The notes under the pieces are model-generated. The model saw only the letters and a program-made list of their open reading frames with translations, was not told the DNA's origin and searched no databases. From positions 239,496 through 273,640 of the forward strand of contig WELB01000065.1 in assembly GCA_009602725.1 (NCBI GenBank): a stretch of DNA of 34,145 bases, written 5' to 3'. The translations under genes were made by a program, and so were the position numbers. This DNA is from Spirogloea muscicola. Lineage: Eukaryota > Streptophyta > Zygnematophyceae > Spirogloeales > Spirogloeaceae. Positions 10,340 through 22,290 of the stretch are shown one piece after another; within the stretch, counting starts at the first letter, position 1, and each line of letters starts with the position of its first letter.

Positions 10340-10901
10340 TGTGTAATGATAAGAGATGGAGGGCCATGTGTGGCCAAGTACAAAGGCAAGCACATTGACA
10401 GATGTACGTAACCTGCTACTAAGCTGACCCGCTCAGTAACCACGAGTCAGCACGTAGAGGTCGCTAACTGATGCCCGAATACCGGACGGCAAATGACAAG
10501 CTCTTGATCTACCAGCTAAGGCTCGACCAGCTTTCTGATGCAACGGATGAGCCTGCGCTCAGGGCCTGAGCTCGCTGCAGACAAGCTGACACTCGGCGAC
10601 GCAAGAATGACAAGTAGGCTGCCGGCATGCTCATTTGAGCTAGAAGCATATCCTCACGTCAAGCGTATCACAAGCTTGCAACGTTCTCCAATAAGGTGTG
10701 GAAGCAAGGGCCCATGCAGCCGAAAGTGTCGATTGCTGCCGGTAGGAGGATCGCTGCGGGGGTAGTCAGAGTAGTGTCGGAGCTTTCTCTGCTCAGCACC
10801 TCCCACTGCGTGGCCAGCAATGTTCGTCGAAGCGGAACTCTTGTATGCCTCCGTCACCACCACATCAACCAAGGCTCGTGGGCCACCGCCAGGTTGAACA
10901 C
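10340..10901 (-). mobile_element. LINE-like element, 3' part (left of the gypsy insertion)
   Basis: On the minus strand, 10901 down to about 10720 encodes the continuation of an endonuclease-type domain (VDVVVTEAYK, then AEQRKLRHYSDYPRSD). Next come a frameshifted C-terminal region, a stop near 10438-10433 and a 3' tail ending near 10345. It matches 11566-12040 in inverted orientation, and the tail also matches 22187-22290. Its upstream half lies beyond the gypsy element at 21541-22186. A deletion after the DYPRSD block, with stops downstream, shows it is dead. Confidence 0.8.
10898..10901. repeat. Target-site duplication, left copy (ACAC)
   Basis: ACAC here and at 21541-21544 flank the gypsy element. 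If the element is taken to end one base earlier, the duplication is AACAC. Removing the element plus one copy restores a continuous LINE reading frame. Confidence 0.85.
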
Positions 10902-11117
10902 TGTCGTGCCGTATCCTGTCGACTGCCCATTTGTGTCGATTTGACTAGGACTGCTGACTGGGCTTCACACGTGGCCTTACTAGGCTGACTCATTCACTTC
11001 GGTGGGTGATTCACGCTGACGATGAAGGACCACTTTTCTCCCTATGTGGCTCCTAGGCTGGGTCATACACTTTTGTGTGTGATTCACGCTGACAATGGAG
11101 GTTCCACCCATCTCTGA

Positions 11118-11207
11118 CTCTCTCGGCGACACCGACTTTCTCTCTCGGCGACACCGACTTTCTCTTTCGGCGACACCGACAACAACAACAACAACAACAA
11201 CAACAAC
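11118..11207 (+). repeat. Minisatellite and CAA microsatellite inside the LTR
   Basis: About three copies of a 22-23-bp unit (core TCGGCGACACCGACTTTCTC) are followed by about nine CAA triplets. The right-hand repeat has fewer minisatellite units (20496-20523) but a similar CAA run, so the copies have changed in unit number since insertion. Confidence 0.85.
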
Positions 11208-11434
11208 GGCGGAGCGACTACAAGGGCCAATGCCCACGCACGACGCCAACCTGCCGAAGACCGTTCAAAGCGCAACGAGGGAAGCCCGTCTACAGGGACC
11301 TCAACCACCAACAAGACCGTCAAGGTGGGCGCTACCGAAGCAGTGGAAAGGCGACCGTGGAACAGACGGCCGAAGACCACCAACTCAAGGTCAGGTCGAC
11401 CACTGGGTCGAATGAACGGCCCTGAGAGACCACC

Positions 11435-11443
11435 CTTTCTCCT
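11435..11443 (+). repeat. Target-site duplication of LINE insertion, left copy
   Basis: CTTTCTCCT here and at 12066-12074 bracket the 622-bp insertion. The right-hand repeat (near 20782-20791) has a single copy at the empty site. Confidence 0.9.
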
Positions 11444-12065
11444 CAGGCCCTTTGCATCCTCAGGCCCCTTTGTAGCTGCTCACCGCTCTTAGGCCCCTCT
11501 GAACCTTTGTGCATTCTTTTTGGGCTGGCTTTTCGCAGCCCTTGCCCCCATTTCGCTTCCACACACATTGCTGGCCACGCAGTGGGAGGTGCTGAGCAGA
11601 AAAAGCTCCGACACTACTCAGACTACCCCCGCAGTGACCACCTCCTCCCGGCCGCAATCGACACTTTCGGCTGCTTGGGTCCTCGCTTCCATACCCTACT
11701 CGAGAACATAGCGAGTCTGGGATATGCACGACGCGAGGATATGCTCCCAGCCCGGATGGGTATGCCGGCAGCCTATCTGTCATTTCTGCGACGTCGAGTG
11801 TCAACCTGTCTGCAACGAGCTCAGGCGTATGCTCTGCATCAGAAAGCTGGTCGAGCCTTAGCTGCTGGCACAAGAGCTAGTCAATTGCCGTCCGGTATTC
11901 GAGCGTCAGCTAGCGACCTCTATGTGCTGACTCGTGGTTACTGAGCGGGTCAGCTTAGCAGCAGGTGACGTACATTTGTCCAATGTGCTTGCCTTTGTAC
12001 TTGGCCACACATGGCCTCCCCATCTCTTAATATACACGCATTTTCATTGGGAGTGCCACTCCTTT
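11444..12065 (+). mobile_element. 5'-truncated LINE-like insertion in the left LTR
   Basis: Absent from the otherwise matching right repeat and bracketed by a 9-bp duplication. From about 11566 it encodes the LINE C-terminus in one open frame to the stop at 11942-11944 (blocks AEQKKLRHYSDYPRSD, AIDTFGCLGPRFHTLL, RRVSTCLQRAQAYALHQKAG), then a 3' tail matching the minus-strand tails at 10340-10440 and 22187-22290. Bases 11444-11565 are not LINE coding sequence and resemble the repeat near 6921-6960, so the insert may be a template-switch chimera. No poly(A) tail is visible. It postdates the gypsy insertion. Confidence 0.85.
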
Positions 12066-12074
12066 CTTTCTCCT
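12066..12074 (+). repeat. Target-site duplication of LINE insertion, right copy
   Basis: CTTTCTCCT, the second copy flanking the LINE insertion. Confidence 0.9.
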
Positions 12075-12448
12075 AGCCAACCAGCGAGCAGCGCACCTAG
12101 CCAATCAGGTAGCGCTAGGGTTTCACCGCATCCGGCCCATGTCGGAGCGCGCGAGCCCTGCCAAGCAGTTCGCTTGGCAAATCTCACCCTCCTGCCGCGC
12201 CTGCGCCCACCGCGCCTGTGCCGACCAAGCCTGCGTCTACTCGCGCCTGTGTCCGCGAGAGCGTAGAGCCCGGCGCCCACGGCGTGCGCGCTTAGTGAGC
12301 GTCGCCCGAACCCGCTAGCAACTGCGAGAAGTCGTATTTCTTCTGTGGTGAGCAGCTTATCATTGTGCTGTTCTTGCGAGTCTTACCATCGGAGTGCTGT
12401 GCTCATTGCTTGTGCACACGTCTTTGCATTGGTTGCTTGTGTGCATGT

Positions 12449-12517
12449 AAGGCGCGCCCTTTGGGCCCCTTTACAATATTCACAAAAGGCGCGCCCTTTG
12501 GGCCCCTTTGAATATTG
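12449..12517 (+). repeat. Tandem 36-bp duplication in the LTR
   Basis: Two adjacent copies of a unit with core GGCGCGCCCTTTGGGCCCCT (AscI- and ApaI-type palindromes) followed by an AATATT word. The same pair is in the right repeat at about 21167-21235, so it is part of the repeat itself. Confidence 0.85.
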
Positions 12518-12613
12518 GTGGTGAACCTAGATAGGGCCGGTCTTGGGACGGTCGTGTGACTGAAATACTGGTGACGGGAAACTCGAGATACAGTGGCACG
12601 TTACTTTTATTTG

Positions 12614-12777
12614 CCAAGCGAACTCAGAGCTTGAGTTTATTGCATTGGATTGCTATTACTTGCTTGAACTCTGCTCAAGGCTGCAAGTGCGACTGTTATC
12701 TCTGAGTTGGATTGTTGCCAGTGTTATCGATCAGCTGTTGATTGCGTTGTGATCTGTTTCTCGGCTACTACTATTGC
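12614..12777 (+). other. Retrotransposon 5' leader
   Basis: Untranslated stretch between the end of B1 and the first gag ATG. The first bases (CCAAGCGAACTCAGAGC) would be the primer-binding region in a standard element, but they lack the usual TGG complement to a tRNA 3' CCA. A different primer or self-priming is possible. Confidence 0.5.
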
Positions 12778-14814
12778 ATGAGACTCAGGTCAGGCAATAT
12801 CGTCAATCTGGAGCCAGAAGGTGAAGTTGCTTCGACAGACATTGATCTTGCCTCTGAGCCAACTGGTACTGCTGTTGCTGAATCACGTGTGGCGGCACGT
12901 AGCTCAAGCGAGATCTTGACAACGATACGCTTTCGGAAAAGCATCAACATGGCATCAGGAGACTTGCCAAAATTCCAAGGTACCCATAGCACTGCTTCTC
13001 TATCTGATGTCAGGAAACATTTCCTGGCAGAGCTATGTCAGTTGGACATGCACGGATGTCAGGTCAGCCGAGAGTCGAAGATGACTTTGTTAGCGAAGTA
13101 CTTCACTGGGGATGCGGGGTTTATGTTTGAGCGGATTCGAGATGATGTTTTGTCCATGACAAAATCAGTCCCCGAGTCTGCGACGGAAGTTGAGAAGCTA
13201 GCAGGTCCCCAGTTAGTCGACCCGGTGGCCGAAGTATTTCGTCAATTCACCCAACAGTTTCCAGAGGATACCTTACAGTATAAGCGAGATCTACTAAGGT
13301 TCCAGAGAGAACCGAATGAGAACATTACCGTCTGTTATTTCAGATACGTGAAGCTGATAGAGAAGTCAGACACCACTATCAGTCATCAGGATTTGGCGGC
13401 AAAGTTCTTACGTGTTGTAGCTGGTAAAGCTCTCTGGCATGTAGTCGATTTATTGACTGTGCGCAGGCAACAGCTCAACAAGAAACATTATGACATTCAT
13501 GATGTCTATCAAGTCATGTTGGAGAGGGAGGCTGCGGAGTTTACTTTGAAAAGCTTAGATGATCGCTTTCCAGAAGTGTCCAATTCCTTCACCAGATCTG
13601 ACAAGAAGTTTGGTGGTCCTGTGGTCAAGAAGCCCTTCACAAAGGCACATGTAGCCATCCCTGATGTACAGCAGGTACCTGACCATTACAAACCTCGTCC
13701 GGCGGTGACTTGCCACAACTGTGGTAAGATTGGACACATTTCAAAACATTGTGCAGCTAGACATCAGACTGCAGGTGCTACCTGTGGTCATTGTGCTAGA
13801 ACAGGACATGTTGAGTCGCAATGTTGGCGGAAACACCCTGACAAATTGCCTGTGCAATTTCGTGGCAAGAAGGCATTGGAGATAGGAAAGGCTCCAACTG
13901 ACGGTGGTCGTGTGGATGGAGACCAACTACAGAAGTTGCAGAGACAGATTGAAAAGCTGACACAACAGTTAGCTGCAAGCGAGATCAAGGCCAAGTCTAG
14001 TGCTAAGTCGGCCGCAGCTGCTGTTGTGCACTCAGATGTAGAAGAGGATGAGGATGACCTTGCAGGCATGTATGAGGCTCAGTATGCAGCAGGGACTTCT
14101 CATAAGTATGGGTATTCTCACCTGGCATCGATTGTTGCTGCAGTACCGGAGTCTTCTAACACTGCAAGCAGAAACCCAATGAAGCGAGGTGAAAATGCTA
14201 TGCAGCAACTTGCTAGGACCGGCAATGCTAGGTACCCTGCAAGTTTCAAATTGAAGGCCACTCAACCTGACTTTCTTCTATCACAGCCTCAGCTCGTTGT
14301 GAAGTCCACAGAGCCGAAGGTTACTAATCCCACTTCACTTAGTGTTGATTGTACATTGTCGGCTGGGACCCTGTTGGACAGGTTGTACACAGCACCTGTT
14401 TTGAGCATCAACGACCTAGGATGGACGAAAGAGGCATTGAGTAACATGCTGACCAATACTGCAGTTGAGGTTGTGCAGAACTTGCAGACTACATCTGTCG
14501 GAACTGCCACCTACTCTGAGAATAGGGCACAGTCATGTGTTTTTGATATTGTGCCTCTCAGATCATCGGAGGAACGAAAGAAACAGTTTTCCACGGTGAC
14601 AATGCTAGATAATAGTTCAGGCATATTAGAGGTCAATGCAGTCAAGCCTAATGTCGTGTTGTTAGACACAGGGGCTCAACCGATCCTTTTGGGTTGGCGT
14701 ATGATCGCTGAACTGGGTCTAGAGTCTTGTGACATAGCCCCCAGTAACATCAAGATTAAGACTGCTACTGGTGGTACAGATGCTATCTTAGGACTGACCA
14801 GAAAGCCAGTTTAA
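12778..14814 (+). CDS. gag: Gag-protease polyprotein (N-terminal part of the element)
   Basis: An open frame of about 678 codons from ATG 12778 to TAA 14812-14814. The capsid-like region (about residues 70-270) includes a YKRDLLRFQREPNE...YFRYVKLI block. Two CCHC zinc knuckles follow at 13711-13752 and 13783-13824, both C-x2-C-x4-H-x4-C, for RNA binding and packaging. A coiled-coil-like Gln/Lys stretch follows (13915-14010). Near the end is the aspartic protease signature LLDTGAQPILLG (Asp codon 14665-14667). The rest of the protease, including a DILLG motif at 14892-14906, lies in the next frame after the stop. The stop may be decay or a recoding site; no canonical slippery heptamer is in phase at 14806-14816. 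Confidence 0.9.
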   Translation: MRLRSGNIVNLEPEGEVASTDIDLASEPTGTAVAESRVAARSSSEILTTIRFRKSINMASGDLPKFQGTHSTASLSDVRKHFLAELCQLDMHGCQVSRESKMTLLAKYFTGDAGFMFERIRDDVLSMTKSVPESATEVEKLAGPQLVDPVAEVFRQFTQQFPEDTLQYKRDLLRFQREPNENITVCYFRYVKLIEKSDTTISHQDLAAKFLRVVAGKALWHVVDLLTVRRQQLNKKHYDIHDVYQVMLEREAAEFTLKSLDDRFPEVSNSFTRSDKKFGGPVVKKPFTKAHVAIPDVQQVPDHYKPRPAVTCHNCGKIGHISKHCAARHQTAGATCGHCARTGHVESQCWRKHPDKLPVQFRGKKALEIGKAPTDGGRVDGDQLQKLQRQIEKLTQQLAASEIKAKSSAKSAAAAVVHSDVEEDEDDLAGMYEAQYAAGTSHKYGYSHLASIVAAVPESSNTASRNPMKRGENAMQQLARTGNARYPASFKLKATQPDFLLSQPQLVVKSTEPKVTNPTSLSVDCTLSAGTLLDRLYTAPVLSINDLGWTKEALSNMLTNTAVEVVQNLQTTSVGTATYSENRAQSCVFDIVPLRSSEERKKQFSTVTMLDNSSGILEVNAVKPNVVLLDTGAQPILLGWRMIAELGLESCDIAPSNIKIKTATGGTDAILGLTRKPV

Positions 14815-16967
14815 ATTCTCTGTATGCCAATGTCCCTAGCAGACGGACTACTTTGTCAGTGATCTGCATGATCACTAAAGCCAGAAGTTATGACATTCTG
14901 CTAGGAACTCAATTTCTGGTGCCCATAGGCTTCGGTTTGGATTTTTACAGTGAAGCAGCTTGGTATAGACCAGATTGGCTAAATGCTGGCACTGATATTG
15001 TCTCATTACCGTTGATGAAATCGTGTACCAATGCAGACATTGAAGCCAATGCTGGGGTGCCAACTACAGACGATGTTGTGGACAGTGAGAAGCTAATGAA
15101 GCAATTGGAGGATGGACTGGAGGGAACAGAGGAGCCAACTGAAGAGCAGTTGGCGAGTCTGAGAGATGAGCTGAGGGAGATGGAGGATGTGACTCCCCCA
15201 GCCGATTCGCCACCGACCGATGCACCAGCTATTGCTCCATTAGTCAATGTTCCACCAGCTGCTGCTGCGACTGCCGCTGCTGCTGTCACTACTTCTACTG
15301 CTGCTACTGCTATCGCTGCTACTGCTGCGATTGCCGCTGCTGCGACTGCCGCTGCTGCTACCACTACTGCTATCGCTGCTGCTGCTGCAACTGCCGCTGC
15401 TGCTGTTACTACTGCTACTGCTGCTACTGCTATCGGTGCTGCTGCTGCAACTGCCGCTGCTTCTGCCACTGCTGCTGCTGTTACCACTGCTGCTGCTGCT
15501 GCACCACCAACGGCACCAGCACCACCAGCGCAGAATCCACCAGGTGGACAGAAGAGAGAAATTTCACCGGCGTTTCTACGTGCAGCACTACAGCCTGCCA
15601 AAATGATGAAACCACTCACTGCAGCAGGACTGAGTGACAGGGACTTGGCAGAGTTGACCGTTGAGGAGAATTTTCGACGGTACCTTGCGATGTTACCAGA
15701 TTGGTCTGCCACGGCAGCAATTCGGGTGGAGGAAGCATGGACATTCAAAACTTTCAATGTTTCGATGACCAACCCGGGACAAAATGAAGAGGCGGCCGAA
15801 GATAGGAGATTCTACGCCGGGGTTATCCCTTTCGAGTTTGGAGAGCAGGGACTGGTGGTACTAGAGTTGTTTGGAGGCAGCGCTGCAGGGTTGGCAGGGT
15901 TGTTGCGCAGCCGCTACAGAATTGCGCAGTATATTTACGTGGATAATAATTGGGCCTCACGTGAAGCTGCAGCCCACCACATCTCCATACTCAAGGAGCG
16001 GTACAACCACCTGGTGACTCCAAATACGTTTGCAACCTGGGATACTCTACTCCCAGGAGATATCCGGGAAGCGGAGAAAGTGGAGTACCTCAAACTCTTA
16101 CCCCAGTGGACCTGGTTATCGCAGGCTTCCTTGCGAGGGCTTCAGCCCTGCAGGCCGAGGGGAGGGATTCGGTCATGTCAACTCAGCCCTTTTCTTCCCA
16201 ATGCTACGCATCCTTAAACATATTCGTAGCAGACAAAGGAAGCCCATGGCTTACATAATAGAAATTGTACAGCCAGATGATGATGCCATTGATGCGAACA
16301 ACCATTTCCGTAGGTTGTATCACATATTGGGTCCTTTTGTGACCTTAGATGTGGCAAGGGTTAGCTCGTTAGCCGACCGGAAGAGAATTTTTTGGACAAA
16401 TCTGGCACCTGCGCAGCTCCTACAAGCCTGCATCAACGGTCAGGAACGACATGACGACGCCAGGGTTCAGCTCATCCTTGATGCCGGACGGAGGGTACCA
16501 CTGGTCTCACTTCAAGTGACGCAGCACCCAGTTAACCGTCCAGGACAAGTTCGATGCACTCTACCGACCTTGGTGGCATCTGACAAGTCTGCCGGCTTCA
16601 GAATCCGGAATGGTATCATTGGTCAGGGCATGATACTCGTTTCGCCTGTGAATACTCCAGATGTTTATGCTACGCCAACACCTCGCGAACGCGAGAAAAG
16701 CATGGGCTTCTGGCCTGGCGACATCACTCCCCATCACTTCCTGATGTGCTCAAAAATCGTATCATAGGTCAAGCCTTTGACCTTAATGCCATTACCTGGT
16801 TGGCTAGTGTGCTTGGTCGCTTACAGACCAAGTATCGCATGCTGAGAGTAGCGTATGAGCGTAGTCTTCTACCTCCACCTCAAGGTTCTTCAATGTCGGT
16901 GATTGATAGGCGCATGCTGACCCTATTCCGATTTCTTGAAGCAGAGAGGGAAGAGGATGACGAATAG
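14815..16967 (+). pseudogene. Protease C-terminus, Ala/Thr linker and cytosine-5 DNA methyltransferase (frameshifted)
   Basis: Frame 0 (to 16217) carries the protease tail, an acidic segment, a long Ala/Thr linker (15246-15516) and the N-terminal half of a C5-methyltransferase: motif I VVLELFGGSAAGLAGLL at 15853-15903 and a YIYVDNN strand after it. The frame shifts twice at about 16105-16130. The next frame (to 16767) holds motif IV PCEGFSPAGRG (catalytic Cys, about 16127-16160), motif VI as IIEIV rather than IIENV (about 16254), motif VIII RKRIFWTN (about 16378), a TLVASDKSAGF block and an EREKSMGFWPGD motif. A third shift near 16730 leads to IIGQAFDLNAITWL, the motif X-type C-terminus, and a stop at 16965-16967. 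These motifs in this order define a cytosine-5 DNA methyltransferase. It would methylate host or element DNA in the nucleus. This copy is broken. Confidence 0.85.
15246..15516 (+). repeat. GCT/ACT trinucleotide repeat encoding an Ala/Thr linker
   Basis: About 270 bp of imperfect GCT, GCC, GCA and ACT codons giving roughly 75 Ala/Thr-rich residues, with Pro-rich borders. It separates the protease region from the methyltransferase and is probably a flexible linker; its length is likely variable between copies. Confidence 0.9.
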
Positions 16968-18705
16968 CAATTACAATGTGTAGCCCATACTGCTGATAAA
17001 ACCATTGTTGGGTACAAGTGGCAGCTGGGTCTTTGGTTGAGTGATGAACAGAGGCATCGACTAACGATAATGCTTCAGCAGAATATTGCATGCTTTGCTT
17101 TTTCGGCGGCTGACTTAGTTGCTTATGTGGGTGCCAAGTTCCAAATTAACTCAGTGACGACAAGCCTATCTTCCGGAAGAGGTATACATTGTCTCCATAT
17201 GAGGATGAGCTTGTAGCAAAGAGATGTCAAGAACTGCTTGCTCTTGGTATGATAGAACTATCTAATAGTTCTTTTGCAGCACCTACAGTCCTACCAGCGA
17301 AGAAAGACGAGCATGGCAACTATACCGATAGACGCATGTGTAGTGACTACCGGTTGCTGAATGCAGATACACCCTTGGATAGGTATCCAATGCCCACTCC
17401 AGAAGAGATCTTTAACCGCATAGGTTCTGCAAAGCTTTTCTCTGTCTTGGATTTAAAGTATGGGTTCAATCAATTGCAATTGAGCCTAATGATAGACACA
17501 AGACTGCATTCTGGGGCGTAGATACACTATATCAATGGACAAGGATGCCGTTTGGACTGAAGAATGCACCGTCTATGTTTCAGCGTGTTATGGACCAGGT
17601 GTTGAAAGGAGTTCCATACGCCAAATGTTACATAGACGATGTTCTGATATTCAGTCATGAATTTGTTGAGTATGTGACTCATATTGACTCTGTTCTTAAG
17701 ATGATACAGAGTTCAGATTTGAAGTGCCATCCAGGAAATTGCCGGTTTGCACTCACTGAGGTCCATTATCTTGGACATCAGATAACAGAGAATGGTCGTT
17801 CTCCGCAAGATAGCAAGGTGCAAGCAATCCTGTCCATTCCTGCACCTACCAATCTTACATCTTTGAGATCGTTTTTAGGGCTTGCCAGTTTCTATCGTCG
17901 GTATATTGAGCATTTTAGCTCTTTGGCTCGTCCTCTCAACAGTCTGCTCAAAAAGAATACGCCTTGGCTATGGGGATCTGAACAGGAACACGCTTTTTGC
18001 CAGTTTAAACAATCACTGACAACAGCTCCTGTTTTGCGACGTCCTGATTATACCAAAGAGTTCCAGCTGCACACAGACTGGAGCAAACTCGGCATGGGAG
18101 CTGTACTTGTGCAGCAGGACGAAGATCACCATGATTATGTCATTGCTTATGCAAGTCGTTCTAACAATGCTGCCCAACGCAATTACTCTGCTTATGAAGG
18201 CGAATGTCTTGCAGCTGTTTGGGCTGTCACGCATTTTAGACCGTACTTATATGGACGACAGTTCAAGCTCGTCACAGATCATCAACCTTTGAAGTGGTTA
18301 CTGACCACTAATCATTTGACTGGCAAACTCGCCCGATGGGCACTACGTTTGACAGAATATAAGTTTGAAATTGTTCATAAGCCAGGACTGCAGAATCTGG
18401 ACGCAGATGCTCTGAGCCGCAACCCTATACCGGCAACTATGGATGAGCAATTCGCCTTGCTTTCAATTGCTATTGTGTCAGTACCTTTGAGCAGTCCTGC
18501 TTCTTACCTGGCATGCTTTGCTATGCATTCGCCACATGCCTGTGCTATAGACGGCCCTGATGATACCTTCTTTTCCAAAGATGTTTGGCTGGATCTGCCT
18601 GTACTTCATTACCTACAGAATGGCATGTATCTACCTCATCTTTCTACCATACAGAAGGATCGGGTAAAACACCGGGCCCGACGCTATGTCTGGCAAAACA
18701 ATTAA
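16968..18705 (+). pseudogene. pol: Reverse transcriptase and RNase H of the gypsy element (frameshifted)
   Basis: A gypsy-type pre-RT segment is followed at about 17189-17521 by PTVLPAKKDEHG, RRMCSDYRLLN and FSVLDLKYGFNQ, and then a frameshift near 17475. The next frame, open to TAA 18703-18705, has MPFGLKNAP, the catalytic YIDD box (17629-17640), the LGHQI and FLGLASFYRRYI thumb/connection motifs, and RNase H with its first Asp in TDWSKLGMGAVL (about 18076), Glu in YEGECLAAVWAV (about 18194) and Asp in VTDHQPLKWLL (about 18272), ending LDADALSRNP. It copies element RNA to DNA and removes the RNA. RT and RNase H catalytic residues are intact, but the frameshift and terminal stop break the polyprotein. 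Confidence 0.93.
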
Positions 18706-19692
18706 CTAGTTCGTCCGCATGAGGTATACGGAAACCAGGTTGTTCCTCCTCCTGCTGAACGCTTACAACTCGTCCAAGATGTTCATACGAATTATGGACA
18801 CTTCGGTGTAAAACGTACAATCAGTCTTCTCATGCCTAGATATTGGTGGCATGGTGTGACCAACACTGTTAAACAGGTTCTGTCACAATGTGAGGAATGC
18901 GACCGCATCCGTAGTACGTTCTCCCTGAAGTCTCCAGTATTACATCCTTTGCTAATTGAAGGGCTCTTTTACAGATGCAGTCTTGATTTGGCGGGACCAC
19001 TACGACTGGGTGAACGGCAAAGGCCGTATGTTCTCATTATGATCGAGCATTTCTCTAAATGGGTAGAAGTTGTTATTATTCCTACCAAAACTAGTGAACT
19101 CATCGCTGATGCTTTCAAGAATGCTGTGCTCACCCGGTATGGTGCTCCAGCAGAAGTGCTTACTGATCGAGGCACTGAATTCAAGGGTGCCTTTCAGCAG
19201 CTGTTGGACCGCAGCTTCATTGATCATCGTCTTACATCAAGGGATTATCCGCAGGCTGATGGTTTAGCAGAGCAGATGGTGCAGACGATAAAGAAAGGTT
19301 TGATGAAATATGTGATGAAACATGGCATGGAATGCTGAGACCAATTTTCACCATGGCTGATTATGGGCTATCGAATGTCAAACCAGACTTCTCTGTCTTG
19401 CTATAGTCCCTATTTTCTGCTATTCGGTCGACACCCTGTCATTCCATCTAACATCCGTCTTGTCAATAACGACGTAAACCTGGATAACCCAGTGATTTGG
19501 TACAAGGTCTGCGCGGCCAGAGGCAAACTCTTCCAGAAGCATATGCAGATGGCCCTGAACAACTTGCGTATCGCTCAGCATCGGGATACTAACAGGTACG
19601 CTACTATTCGTAGTGGTGGGTACAAACCACAGTTTAAAGACATTGATCTTGGTGACTTTGTGTATGTGAAGGTGAAACCACAAGACGCTTGA
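18706..19692 (+). pseudogene. int: DDE integrase of the gypsy element (two in-frame stops)
   Basis: Same frame as the RT/RNase H end, separated from it only by TAA 18703-18705. The HHCC zinc-binding domain (VHTNYGHFGVKRT near 18780-18815, CEECD near 18889-18905) precedes the rve core: first Asp in SLDLAGPL (about 18984), second Asp in LTDRGTEFKG (about 19165), Glu in GLAEQMVQTIKKGL (about 19272). A TGA at 19336-19338 interrupts it, followed in frame by the PWLIMGYR...YSPYFLLFGRHP C-terminal core typical of gypsy integrases. A second TGA at 19690-19692 follows. The enzyme inserts cDNA by strand transfer and normally makes the 4-6-bp duplications seen here. No chromodomain is present; a PHD finger follows instead. 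Confidence 0.93.
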
Positions 19693-20079
19693 GACTCTTC
19701 AACAGGACCTCTCATCCTTCAGGTTGTTGAGAAACTCTCTTCCAATGTGGTTAAACGTCGTGGTTCATGCAATCGTGTAATCAGTGATCATGTTCAAAAT
19801 ATTACACGTTGTCATCTGAGCAATATTGATCCAACCATTGACCCCACTACCCAATGGGTTTCTGAGAATCTATCTTGTGAACTTTGTCAACGTTCCGATC
19901 AGGCAGTTCAAATGCTTTTATGTTCTCTTTGCACTAGGGGTTTCCATATACACTGCCTTGATCCACCACTGACTTCTATTCCACAGGATGATTGGTTCTG
20001 TGTAGCCTGCTCAGATACTTTCCCAACTGCTCCACCTGTGCCAGGACTGACAGTTGGGGGGGGGGAAACTACAGATTAA
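19693..20079 (+). pseudogene. C-terminal PHD finger of the gypsy polyprotein
   Basis: The integrase frame continues after the TGA at 19690-19692 through a short linker into a C4HC3 zinc finger at 19876-20020: CELC, LLCSLC, GFHIHCLDPPL and WFCVAC supply the Cys/His ligands in PHD order, with the Trp before the final Cys pair. PHD fingers read histone H3 tails. At the end of an integrase it would sit where chromoviruses carry a chromodomain, suggesting chromatin-guided integration (inference). The frame runs through the G10 tract and ends at 20077-20079 inside repeat A1. Confidence 0.85.
20056..20065 (+). promoter_or_regulatory. Polypurine tract (G10)
   Basis: Ten G residues followed by AAA directly precede repeat A1. 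In a standard LTR element the purine tract primes plus-strand synthesis and marks the start of the 3' LTR. Here it marks the start of segment A, not of the TGTC terminus. Confidence 0.6.
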
Positions 20080-20274
20080 AATTCGACTGTTCTTGACTTG
20101 TTCATGGTGCTGTGATGTCTGGCATGGTTCCTTAGCAGATGGATTTTCATGACAGTCTGGTCAAAGTAGCCAACATTCTCGTTTGGCTTTTGTGTACACC
20201 AAACTAGCAAGTCAGCATTTCCCTTCTTCTAGACCTATCGACGCCATCTCGCACCGACGCCCTCGCGCGTGACA
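20066..20274 (+). repeat. Terminal-repeat segment A1
   Basis: Matches A2 (21331-21540) over 210 bp including the preceding G, without indels and with six substitutions. It starts right after the purine tract and ends CGCGTGACA. Its partner A2 forms the outer right end of the element. Confidence 0.9.
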
Positions 20275-20280
20275 GCTGTC
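20271..20280. promoter_or_regulatory. Palindromic A|B junction (GACAGCTGTC)
   Basis: A perfect 10-bp palindrome where A1 meets B2. Its halves are the element's outer ends: the left end begins TGTC and the right end ends GACA, with the central GC absent. This resembles a circle junction of unprocessed LTR ends (CA-GC-TG) and may be the integrase recognition/cleavage site. Confidence 0.6.
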
Positions 20281-20523
20281 GTGCCGTATCCTGTCGACTG
20301 CCCATTTGTGTCGATTTGACTAGGACTGCTGACTGGGCTTCACACGTGGCCTTACTAGGCTGACTCATTCACTTCGGTGGGTGATTCACGCTGACAATGA
20401 AGGACCACTTTTCTCCCTATGTGGCTCCTAGGCTGGGTCATACACTTTTGTGTGTGATTCACGCTGACAATGGAGGTTCCACCCATCTCTGACTCTCGGC
20501 GACACTGACTTTCTCTTTCGACG

Positions 20524-20554
<31 letters not shown>

Positions 20555-21330
20555 CGGCGGAGCGACTACAAGGGCCAATGCCCACGCACGACGCCAACCT
20601 GCCGAAGACCGTTCAAAGCGCAACGAGGGAAGCCCATCTACAGGGACCTCAACCACCAACAAGACCGTCAAGGTGGGCGCTACCGAAGCAGTGGAAAGGC
20701 GACCGTGGAACAGACGGCCGAAGACCACCAACTCAAGGTCAGGTCGACCACTGGGTCGAATGAACGGCCCTGAGAGACCACCCTTTCTCCTAGCCAACCA
20801 GCGAGCAGCGCACCTAGCCAATCAGGTAGCGCTAGGGTTTCACCGCATCCGGCCCATGTCGGAGTGCGCGAGCCCTGCCAAGCAGTTCGCTTGGCAAATC
20901 TCACCCTCCTGTCGCGCCTGCGCCCACCGCGCCTGTGCCGACCAAGCCTGCGTCTACTCGCGCCTGTGTCCGCGAGAGCGTAGAGCCCGGCGCCCACGGC
21001 GTGCGCGCTTAGTGAGCGTCGCCCGAACCCGCTAGCGACTGTGAGAAGTCGTATTTCTTCTGTGGTGAGCAGCTTATCATTGTGCTGTTCTTGCGAGTCT
21101 TACCATCGGAGTGCTGTGCTCATTGCTTGTGCACACGTCTTTGCATTGGTTGCTTGTGTGCATGTAAGGCGCGCCCTTTGGGCCCCTTTACAATATTCAC
21201 AAAAGGCGCGCCCTTTGGGCCCCTTTGAATATTGGTGGTGAACCTAGATAGGGCCGGTCTTGGGACGGTCGTGTGACTGAAATACTGGTGACGGGAAACT
21301 CGAGATACAGTGGCACGTTACTTTTATTTG
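20277..21330 (+). repeat. Terminal-repeat segment B2
   Basis: Right-hand counterpart of B1, 1,054 bp, lacking the LINE insertion and some minisatellite units. Outside those it differs from B1 at about six positions, all transitions and five at CpG. It is flanked on both sides by segment A. Confidence 0.92.
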
Positions 21331-21540
21331 GAAACTACAGATTAAAATTCGACTGTTCTTGACTTGTCAATGGTGTTGTGATGTCTGGCATGGTTCCTTA
21401 GCAGATGGATTTTCATGACAGTCTGGTCAAAGTAGCCAATATCCTCGTTTGGCTTGTGTGTACACCAAACTAGCAAGTCAGCATTTCCCTTCTTCTAGAC
21501 CTATCGACGCCATCTCGCACCGACGCCCTCGCGCGTGACA
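21331..21540 (+). repeat. Terminal-repeat segment A2 (outer right end)
   Basis: Second copy of segment A. It starts after TTTTATTTG of B2 and ends GACA at 21540, where LINE sequence resumes with ACAC. Confidence 0.92.
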
Positions 21541-22186
21541 ACACCCACAATGTCCAGGGTGCGACGGTGATGGCGTCTTTGGGAGTCCGTGGTGATGGGC
21601 ATTACATTGCTTACTTCCACAATGGCGCGGTAGCCGGCGTCACGCATCAGGCCCGCCAGGGCGTTCCGTAGGAGATTATGGACGCCCACCACCTCAGGGC
21701 CTGTGGGACACCGCAGCATGTGGGTGGCAAGGTCTCCGCCCTCCGCACAGAAGCCGCACTCACACTGAGTTACTCCAATCAGGCAGGTCGGGGTCAAGCC
21801 TAGGAACAGCTGGAGAAGCGTCCGGAATGCTTCGCGGCTGATTCTGAAAGCGTTGTGGATGGGGTGCGTTGTGAGCCAGTCCGTTGCCCCAGATGTTGCG
21901 AGCGATGTGAGACGTGCCAGACTCCTTGGATTGGTCATGCTATCTGGCATCCTCCTCAATGTCTTGCGGCGCTCATCCTCAACTGCAGCCACAAGTCTGG
22001 CCTGTGCCCCTTCGTCTGATGCTTGAGCAAGCGCTGAGAAGGGTGTGAAGAGGGGTTGCAGGGAGGGGAAGGAGCAGAGTGCTGACTCGCGGGTGCTCCT
22101 CAGTTGCACTTGGAATGCCAAGGAGCCTTCTACCAACTCGGCTGCAGGGCCCGCCAGACAAGGGACGCGCAAGGAAAAATGCGTGT
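21541..22186 (-). mobile_element. LINE-like element, upstream part (right of the gypsy insertion)
   Basis: On the minus strand, about 22165 to 21541 encodes a post-RT segment: ARLTSLATSGATDWLTTHP, FRISREAFRTLLQLFLGL, a zinc motif C-x-C-x11-H-x4-C (CECGF...HMLRC), HNLLRNALAGLMRDAGY and then RRTLDIVGV, where the gypsy element interrupts. Zinc motif followed by an LDIV...VDVVVTE block fits the restriction-like endonuclease end of R2/NeSL-type non-LTR elements (family inferred). It continues in frame at 10901. The RT itself is not present. ACAC at 21541-21544 is the right target duplication of the gypsy element. Confidence 0.8.
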
Positions 22187-22290
22187 GTACTAAGAGATGG
22201 AGGGCCATGTGTGGCCAAGCACAAAGGCAAGCACATTGACAAATGTACGTCATCTGCTGCTAGGCTGACCCGCTCAGTAACCACGAGTCA
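22187..22290 (-). mobile_element. LINE 3' tail fragment
   Basis: On the minus strand this is the stop codon and 3' tail of the LINE family (GACTCGTGGTTACTGAGCGG to CCATCTCTTA), matching 11933-12032 and the inverted copy at 10345-10447. It lies immediately upstream, in the same orientation, of the LINE coding fragment 22186-21541, giving a tail-then-body order. Confidence 0.8.

Follow-up and report, generated by a model that had tools for sequence, protein, structure and literature searches.

The window analysed here, a 34,145-nucleotide stretch of the Spirogloea muscicola genome (contig WELB01000065.1, C65 239496-273640), contains a Ty3/Gypsy retrotransposon that lacks complete, identical long terminal repeats (LTRs) at its two ends and is arranged instead as B-internal-A-B-A, with segment B on the left and A-B-A on the right. 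The element is circularly permuted relative to the borders of its own reverse transcription, and this layout is established from the sequence, as are the spectrum of its joints, its TG..CA outer ends, its target-site duplications and the covariation of its primer. We propose, with a probability of about 0.7, that the integrase attachment site lies inside the LTR: the ends of the complementary DNA (cDNA) would be joined to each other, and the DDE integrase of the element would then reopen the DNA at the internal A|B joint.

Layout of the element in the window

The order B1 ... A1-GC-B2-A2, obtained by repeat finding and by reading of the sequence, is bounded by an ACAC target-site duplication (10898..10901 on the left, identical to 21541..21544 on the right). 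The left terminal segment, B1 (10902..12613, plus strand), starts with TGTCGTGC and is predicted to hold the promoter-side part, R and U5. The right end, delimited by repeat finding and segment mapping, consists of A1 (20066..20274), B2 (20277..21330) and A2 (21331..21540, ending in GTGACA), all on the plus strand. Two bases, GC, separate A1 from B2, and the resulting A|B joint, TGACAGCTGTCG (20270..20281), looks like two integrase ends fused across a 2-bp spacer; the B|A joint between B2 and A2 (21327..21335) is specific to this copy. The original prediction, made from the window alone, had described these B ... A-B-A direct repeats and had set the outer ends at the B start and the A end on the strength of the 4-bp duplication; both stand, with the GC spacer added here. 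It had further held that the insertion site regains a reading frame, and fusing the flanks with a single ACAC does open a frame of 320 codons that runs over the site on the minus strand, where the other two frames are open for just 34 and 43 codons.

A polypurine tract of ten G (20056..20065, plus strand) lies directly before A1, and a primer-binding site, ATTTGCCAAGCGAACT (12609..12624, plus strand), lies at the end of B1. Because A follows the polypurine tract and the primer site follows B, the reverse-transcribed LTR is A+B, with A1 as its start, and the cDNA would accordingly be AB-internal-AB. The terminal repeats of the integrated element have the split direct form of PAT-like elements and of the DIRS order.

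B1 is split by a later nested insert of 622 bp (11444..12065, minus strand), which does not belong to the element, has an 81-92% inverted match to 10397-10837 and carries the nine bases ctttctcct on both its sides. A repeat present in the two flanks of the element, at 10350-10449 and 22191-22290 (94% alike), also occurs inverted in this insert.

Copies elsewhere in the genome

The queries run against the genome (153 Mb, 471 contigs) were segments A and B, part of the internal region, the end formed by B-A, a right end of diverged sequence and the A-B joint; for each, at most 40 candidates were scored, so that all copy counts are lower bounds; 43 stretches (L numbers) were fetched, and the window segments were mapped onto the first 40 of them and onto the window. 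The search recovered the B-internal-A-B-A order at two further loci. In C328 (L025/L026) both ends were read and the copy has its own duplication, GTGC, whereas C17 (L058) shows the order from the middle of B1 to the right end, its left end lying inside a run of N, an assembly gap. No copy with ordinary complete LTRs, BA-internal-BA included, was present among the fetched stretches.

Two shorter forms were also read at both ends. B-internal-A is found in C2, C370 and a second copy on C2 (L064), and also, interrupted by inserted or inverted sequence, in C7, C39 and C104. Solo B|A copies are found in C52, C137, C274, C384, a second on C137 (L045), C44, C77, C99, C3, a second on C65 (L062), a second on C240 (L065), C19 and C46. 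A perfect 4-bp duplication flanks 2 of 2 B-internal-A-B-A, 4 of 6 B-internal-A and 10 of 13 solo copies, 16 of 21 in total, giving the short, fixed-length target duplication of a Ty3/Gypsy element. All 21 copies start with TGT[C/T]GTGC (TGTCGTGC in all but C137, which has TGTTGTGC) and end with GTGACA or ATGACA; left out of this set were the solo copy L057 (plus strand), found via its duplication alone, and stretches with one end in view.

Several copies are internally altered. C66 (L059) reads A-B-internal; its A end is about 16 bases short, and a further B lies some 2.5 kb upstream. This copy might be either the opposite opening, B|A-B-internal-A, or a rearrangement. Head-to-head duplicated or inverted internal segments occur in C18, C39, C7, C127 and C38 (L046, L048, L053, L036, L041) and might be traces of cDNA self-integration. 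A shortened B, with positions 1-244 joined to about 900, occurs in C370 and C87, and in C133 (joined to 961) and C328 (joined to the end of B; L035, L037, L039 and L025/L026, respectively); these copies have lost the self-primer segment described below. The internal deletion of C328 is identical in B1 and B2, as expected of LTR copies.

A constant and a variable joint

The three copies read in context (window, C328 and C17) all have ..GACA-GC-TGTC.. at the A|B joint. An exact pattern allowing the A end and the B start to lie 0-12 bases apart had nine matches genome-wide, with a GC spacer in 9/9. Three of the nine were read in context; the reversed control pattern had four matches, so that a few of the nine may be due to chance. 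With a 251-base query across the joint, in which B starts at position 108 (40 of 190 candidates scored), 34 of the 38 B-bearing matches begin at the B start (query 105-108) and the remaining four span A|B.

The B|A joint, by comparison, has 10 distinct sequences in the 10 copies with a window-type A. On its B side, eight of the 10 end at [C/T]AT, [C/T]ATT or [C/T]ATTTG, that is, at the border between U5 and the primer site; in C237 the B side ends a little before this, and the diverged B of C137b allowed no placement. On the A side the sequence starts either at the edge of the polypurine tract or inside the tract itself, and runs of tract G are retained in C274, C289 and the relative C77. Extra sequence is inserted at the joint in C384 (two bases), C52 (216 bases, matching only its own locus among the fetched stretches) and C14 (a 30-nt filler that is an inverted copy of the primer site), and the B|A joints of diverged copies vary as well. 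Trimmed ends, leftover tract G and filler are best read as marks of joined linear cDNA ends, like those of two-LTR circles.

Probable self-priming of reverse transcription

The primer-binding site (12609..12624) is complementary to a 16-base segment within B1, the putative self-primer AGTTCGCTTGGCAAAT (12167..12182, plus strand), which is the predicted 5' end of the element RNA; a second copy lies in B2 (20884..20899, plus strand). The complementarity between AGTTCGCTTGGCAAAT and the end of B1 with the primer site scores 16 in the window, where the highest of 200 shuffles of B reaches 11.2, and it exceeds all shuffles at 6 of the 10 loci that have a primer site. Among seven aligned sequences of our choosing (C246 and C18 included, C38 and C328 excluded, and the window, identical to C2, entered once), 94.6% of pair cells are kept and three pairs are changed on both sides, in 10 such cells. 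The percentage, the count of double-sided cells and the covariation score were each reached by 0 of 500 shuffles, and sliding the alignment by 1-3 columns lowers the pairing to 19-44%.

C328 also contains a misplaced internal fragment that runs from TCTCACC, just after the primer, to ..GCGAACT, the last primer-site base, its left edge being uncertain within seven shared bases; such a fragment is expected of minus strong-stop DNA carrying the copied primer. Reverse transcription in this family looks self-primed, in the manner of Tf1. In Tf1, an element with LTRs at its ends, the complementarity is 11 nt, compared with about 14-16 nt here. In Tf1 and Tj1 the primer-binding site is described as the complement of a stretch of the 5' LTR where the RNA is predicted to start; unlike the window family, Tj1 is described with terminal LTRs (PMC4600332). 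The right arm of a short hairpin, GCCAAGCagttcGCTTGGC (window 20876-20899), overlaps the self-primer, and the hairpin arms, compared by eye, differ between subfamilies.

Proposed route of integration

From these features we infer both the circle and its cutting by the integrase. The RNA would start in B1 and end in B2, and reverse transcription from its own 5' end would give a linear AB-internal-AB. The cDNA ends, the U5 end of B and the U3 start of A, would then be linked; in the simplest case host end joining would close a two-LTR circle, and the variable B|A joint would be made at this step. The DDE integrase would act on an internal A|B joint, cutting its palindrome CA-GC-TG; given the 2-base spacer, a single staggered cut would yield two recessed CA-3' ends with 2-base 5' tails, like ordinary 3'-processed retroviral ends, and these would be joined to target DNA with a 4-bp stagger. 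A cut in the left LTR would produce B-internal-AB|A; since only this product keeps the downstream repeat, in which the RNA ends, as well as an intact A|B joint, end joining is predicted to be obligatory in each cycle. B-internal-A copies could be derived from one-LTR circles or by recombination between two A segments, and solo B|A copies by recombination between two B segments. Integration from a two-repeat circle had been raised as possible in the original prediction, and the variation of B|A near the expected cDNA ends, with a single spacer at A|B, supports that idea. The stronger claim of a natural DDE-integrase lineage in which the circle is obligatory, CA-GC-TG is pre-fused inside the LTR and the linear cDNA is unable to integrate correctly has, in our judgement, somewhat better than even odds.

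Several observations weigh against this proposal. A perfect duplication is missing from 5 of the 21 end pairs; the relatives C99 and C3 have an identical blunt B|A form, so that the joints are not all unique; and the opposite product, B|A-B-internal-A, which a circle with two A|B sites should also give, was not identified among the fetched copies (0 versus 3, p ~0.125). Self-primer complementarity does not rise above shuffles at four of the 10 loci, namely C328 (segment deleted), C246, C18 and C38, the last having a mosaic B that mismatches its own primer site, and doubly changed pairs are likewise no more numerous than in shuffles (285 of 500). HIV integrase in vitro is reported to make mostly 4-base overhangs at the joint, and the account that describes this notes no such intermediate in cells (PMC1905944).

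To these is added the divergence between repeat copies, which in the window is greater for A1/A2 than for B1/B2 (6/207 versus 8/1063 compared columns, the latter with 27 gap columns aside; Fisher p=0.017). With gap columns excluded, the corresponding substitutions are 3 in 208 columns and 13/386 in C328 (p=0.19, in the opposite direction) and 5/163 and 11/941 in C17 (p=0.07); pooled, p=0.088. The six A differences counted earlier were thus recovered over 207 compared sites, and the earlier figure of about 6 per 1000 for B is replaced by 8/1063. The suggestion drawn from those counts, that the A copies are not renewed in each cycle, is not upheld: A1 and A2 within a copy have subfamily bases in common, and the excess of A over B is reversed in C328. 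A2 as a separate lineage was considered and rejected, because the A2 segments of the window and C328 share only bases that are also present in the A1 of C328 or in solo copies.

Alternative explanations

End-to-end linear cDNA dimers, cut at two A|B sites and never circularized, would give the same product and the same joints as a circle, which also counts against the circle route. They would require two cDNAs and two cuts where the circle needs one cut, and no A-B-A-B between two internal regions is seen in the fetched stretches, C66 aside; we regard such dimers as improbable. The layout could also be templated. In the replication model for PAT-like elements the repeats are handled by strand transfers, and similar transfers might build a linear B-internal-A-B-A cDNA that the DDE integrase inserts by its ends. 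Such a scheme, which we consider unlikely though not quite as doubtful as the dimers, has in its favour outer ends that resemble normal integrase ends and a layout like the split direct repeats described for PAT-like elements (PMC4157794). A templated B|A joint would be inherited, yet all 10 compared copies differ from one another at this joint; both the spacer of A|B and the border between B and the primer site are constant.

Mobilization in trans by the tyrosine recombinase of a resident PAT or DIRS element is very improbable. PAT elements are not known to have target-site duplications, and this family, which has TG..CA ends and encodes a DDE integrase of its own, shows 4-bp duplications in 16 of 21 copies. 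DIRS1-like elements are described as lacking target-site duplications, their mechanism making none (PMC3266345); what speaks for such a recombinase is the shared repeat layout and the occurrence of PAT-like elements in green algae (PMC8226300, PMC3266345). A misassembly or a rearrangement peculiar to the window copy, named in the original prediction as the main alternative, can hardly be maintained: C328 repeats the order next to a duplication of its own, the right end recurs in C17, and a further 10 sites (10 of the 13 solo copies) hold B|A remnants flanked by duplications, so that several loci would need to have been misassembled alike. Joining of the cDNA ends followed by cutting at A|B is the explanation we prefer.

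Coding region

The coding part follows the protease-reverse transcriptase-RNase H-integrase order of Ty3/Gypsy elements. The window frames carry breaks. Its gag (12742..14814, plus strand; no Pfam match in this copy) has two CCHC knuckles and a protease DTGA motif, which were picked out by eye; in C2 the aspartyl-protease match reaches 22.3 bits, below cutoff. Two overlapping frames (14853..16767, plus strand) hold the remainder of the protease, an alanine-rich stretch and a C5 cytosine methyltransferase, which is also present at L059:1675-2613. The alanine-rich stretch is an in-frame simple repeat (window 15198-15540) whose length differs among copies. The methyltransferase family PF00145 scores 20.6 bits in the window, under the cutoff of 22, and 32.3 bits in C2; its best solved relatives are DNMT3A (a weak match, E 2.4e-5) and then bacterial HhaI (2.9e-4), and a protein-database search with the C2 methyltransferase part returned no match.

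Part of the reverse transcriptase and RNase H (17545..18705, plus strand; PF00078, PF17917, PF17919) are followed by an integrase with an H2C2 zinc domain and a DDE core (18784..19338, plus strand; PF17921 and PF00665 on 18832-19338, the rest read by eye). The best solved relative of the reverse transcriptase part is Ty3, and a search with the reverse transcriptase returned generic Gypsy relatives. The earlier assignment as a Gypsy-type element with an HHCC/DDE integrase rather than a tyrosine recombinase is upheld, no tyrosine recombinase being found in the five window open reading frames or the three C2 open reading frames scanned. The integrase ends in a PHD finger (19876..20010, plus strand), matched by PF00628 in C2 (L028:824-3865), with the same cysteines read in the window; in chromoviruses a chromodomain occupies this C-terminal position.

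C2 has a single gag-protease-methyltransferase frame that spans two fetched stretches, the bridging codon not being a stop. After a TAG (L028:752-770), the same frame continues into reverse transcriptase-RNase H-integrase-PHD, 1014 residues from the first start codon, and ends about 13 bases into A. The TAG is followed by CAATTA and resembles the leaky stop context of tobacco mosaic virus, which suggests that it is read through.

A query with the integrase-PHD part returned 164 proteins, the best being KFL_015960010 of Klebsormidium nitens (50% identity over 67% of the query). Other named relatives among the best 120 of the 164 include proteins of Haematococcus lacustris, Tetrabaena socialis and Closterium, and many of these 120 have a PHD finger. 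Of six picked relatives that were scanned, five have a PHD finger and four a methyltransferase, four of the six having been chosen for their listed methyltransferase. No relative was confirmed among viral contigs scanned with the reverse transcriptase-integrase-PHD protein.

Relation to known systems and significance

Chlamydomonas TOC1 (1988) is reportedly grouped with the PAT-like and kangaroo elements. These elements have split direct repeats like those of the window family (PMC4157794, PMC3266345), and differ from it in using a tyrosine recombinase, where the window family has a DDE integrase, 4-bp duplications and TG..CA ends. A further counterpart is KnitGypsy-Dnmt3 of Klebsormidium nitens (de Mendoza et al. 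2018), a Gypsy element whose repeats are given as 'the same as that of a DIRS retrotransposon' in the Fig. 4 legend of PMC5890265. It shares with the window family Gypsy domains, a cytosine methyltransferase in the coding part and, in the wording of that legend, DIRS-type repeats; the account there states no joints, duplications or mechanism (PMC5890265). The comparison is with the published description, and KFL_015960010 need not be part of KnitGypsy-Dnmt3. Searches of open-licence papers in PubMed Central turned up no mechanism that accounts for split repeats in an element with a DDE integrase. Within that literature, the split-repeat layout in Gypsy elements is already known, and what is added here concerns the two joints and the duplications, the self-primer and the proposed mechanism through a circle.

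In the textbook view, retroviral integration uses linear cDNA and two-LTR circles are dead ends. The circle model was dropped on two grounds, namely that linear DNA was shown to integrate and that the circle joint predicts 4-base tails where 2-base tails are observed (PMC11054761). In foamy virus the palindromic LTR-LTR joint loses two bases, and a single reaction of the integrase has been proposed to produce both processed ends, the same staggered-cut geometry as suggested here; its joint consists of fused cDNA ends, whereas that of the window family is templated inside each LTR and the fused ends lie elsewhere (PMC1180852). Foamy-virus and HIV integrases are reported to cleave the two-LTR palindrome, and HIV circles have been proposed as an integration reserve (PMC1180852, PMC1905944, PMC4372172).

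A built-in A|B joint with a 2-base spacer, unlike the retroviral circle joint, predicts 2-base tails. If the proposed route is correct, the circle-junction model of 1984, given up for retroviruses, operates in nature, and if the whole family uses it, the action of a DDE integrase on circles would become a simple question for one enzyme and one oligonucleotide. The circle route would also be a possible way for split repeats to arise. Split repeats need not mean a tyrosine recombinase, and classifying elements by repeat layout is therefore unsafe.

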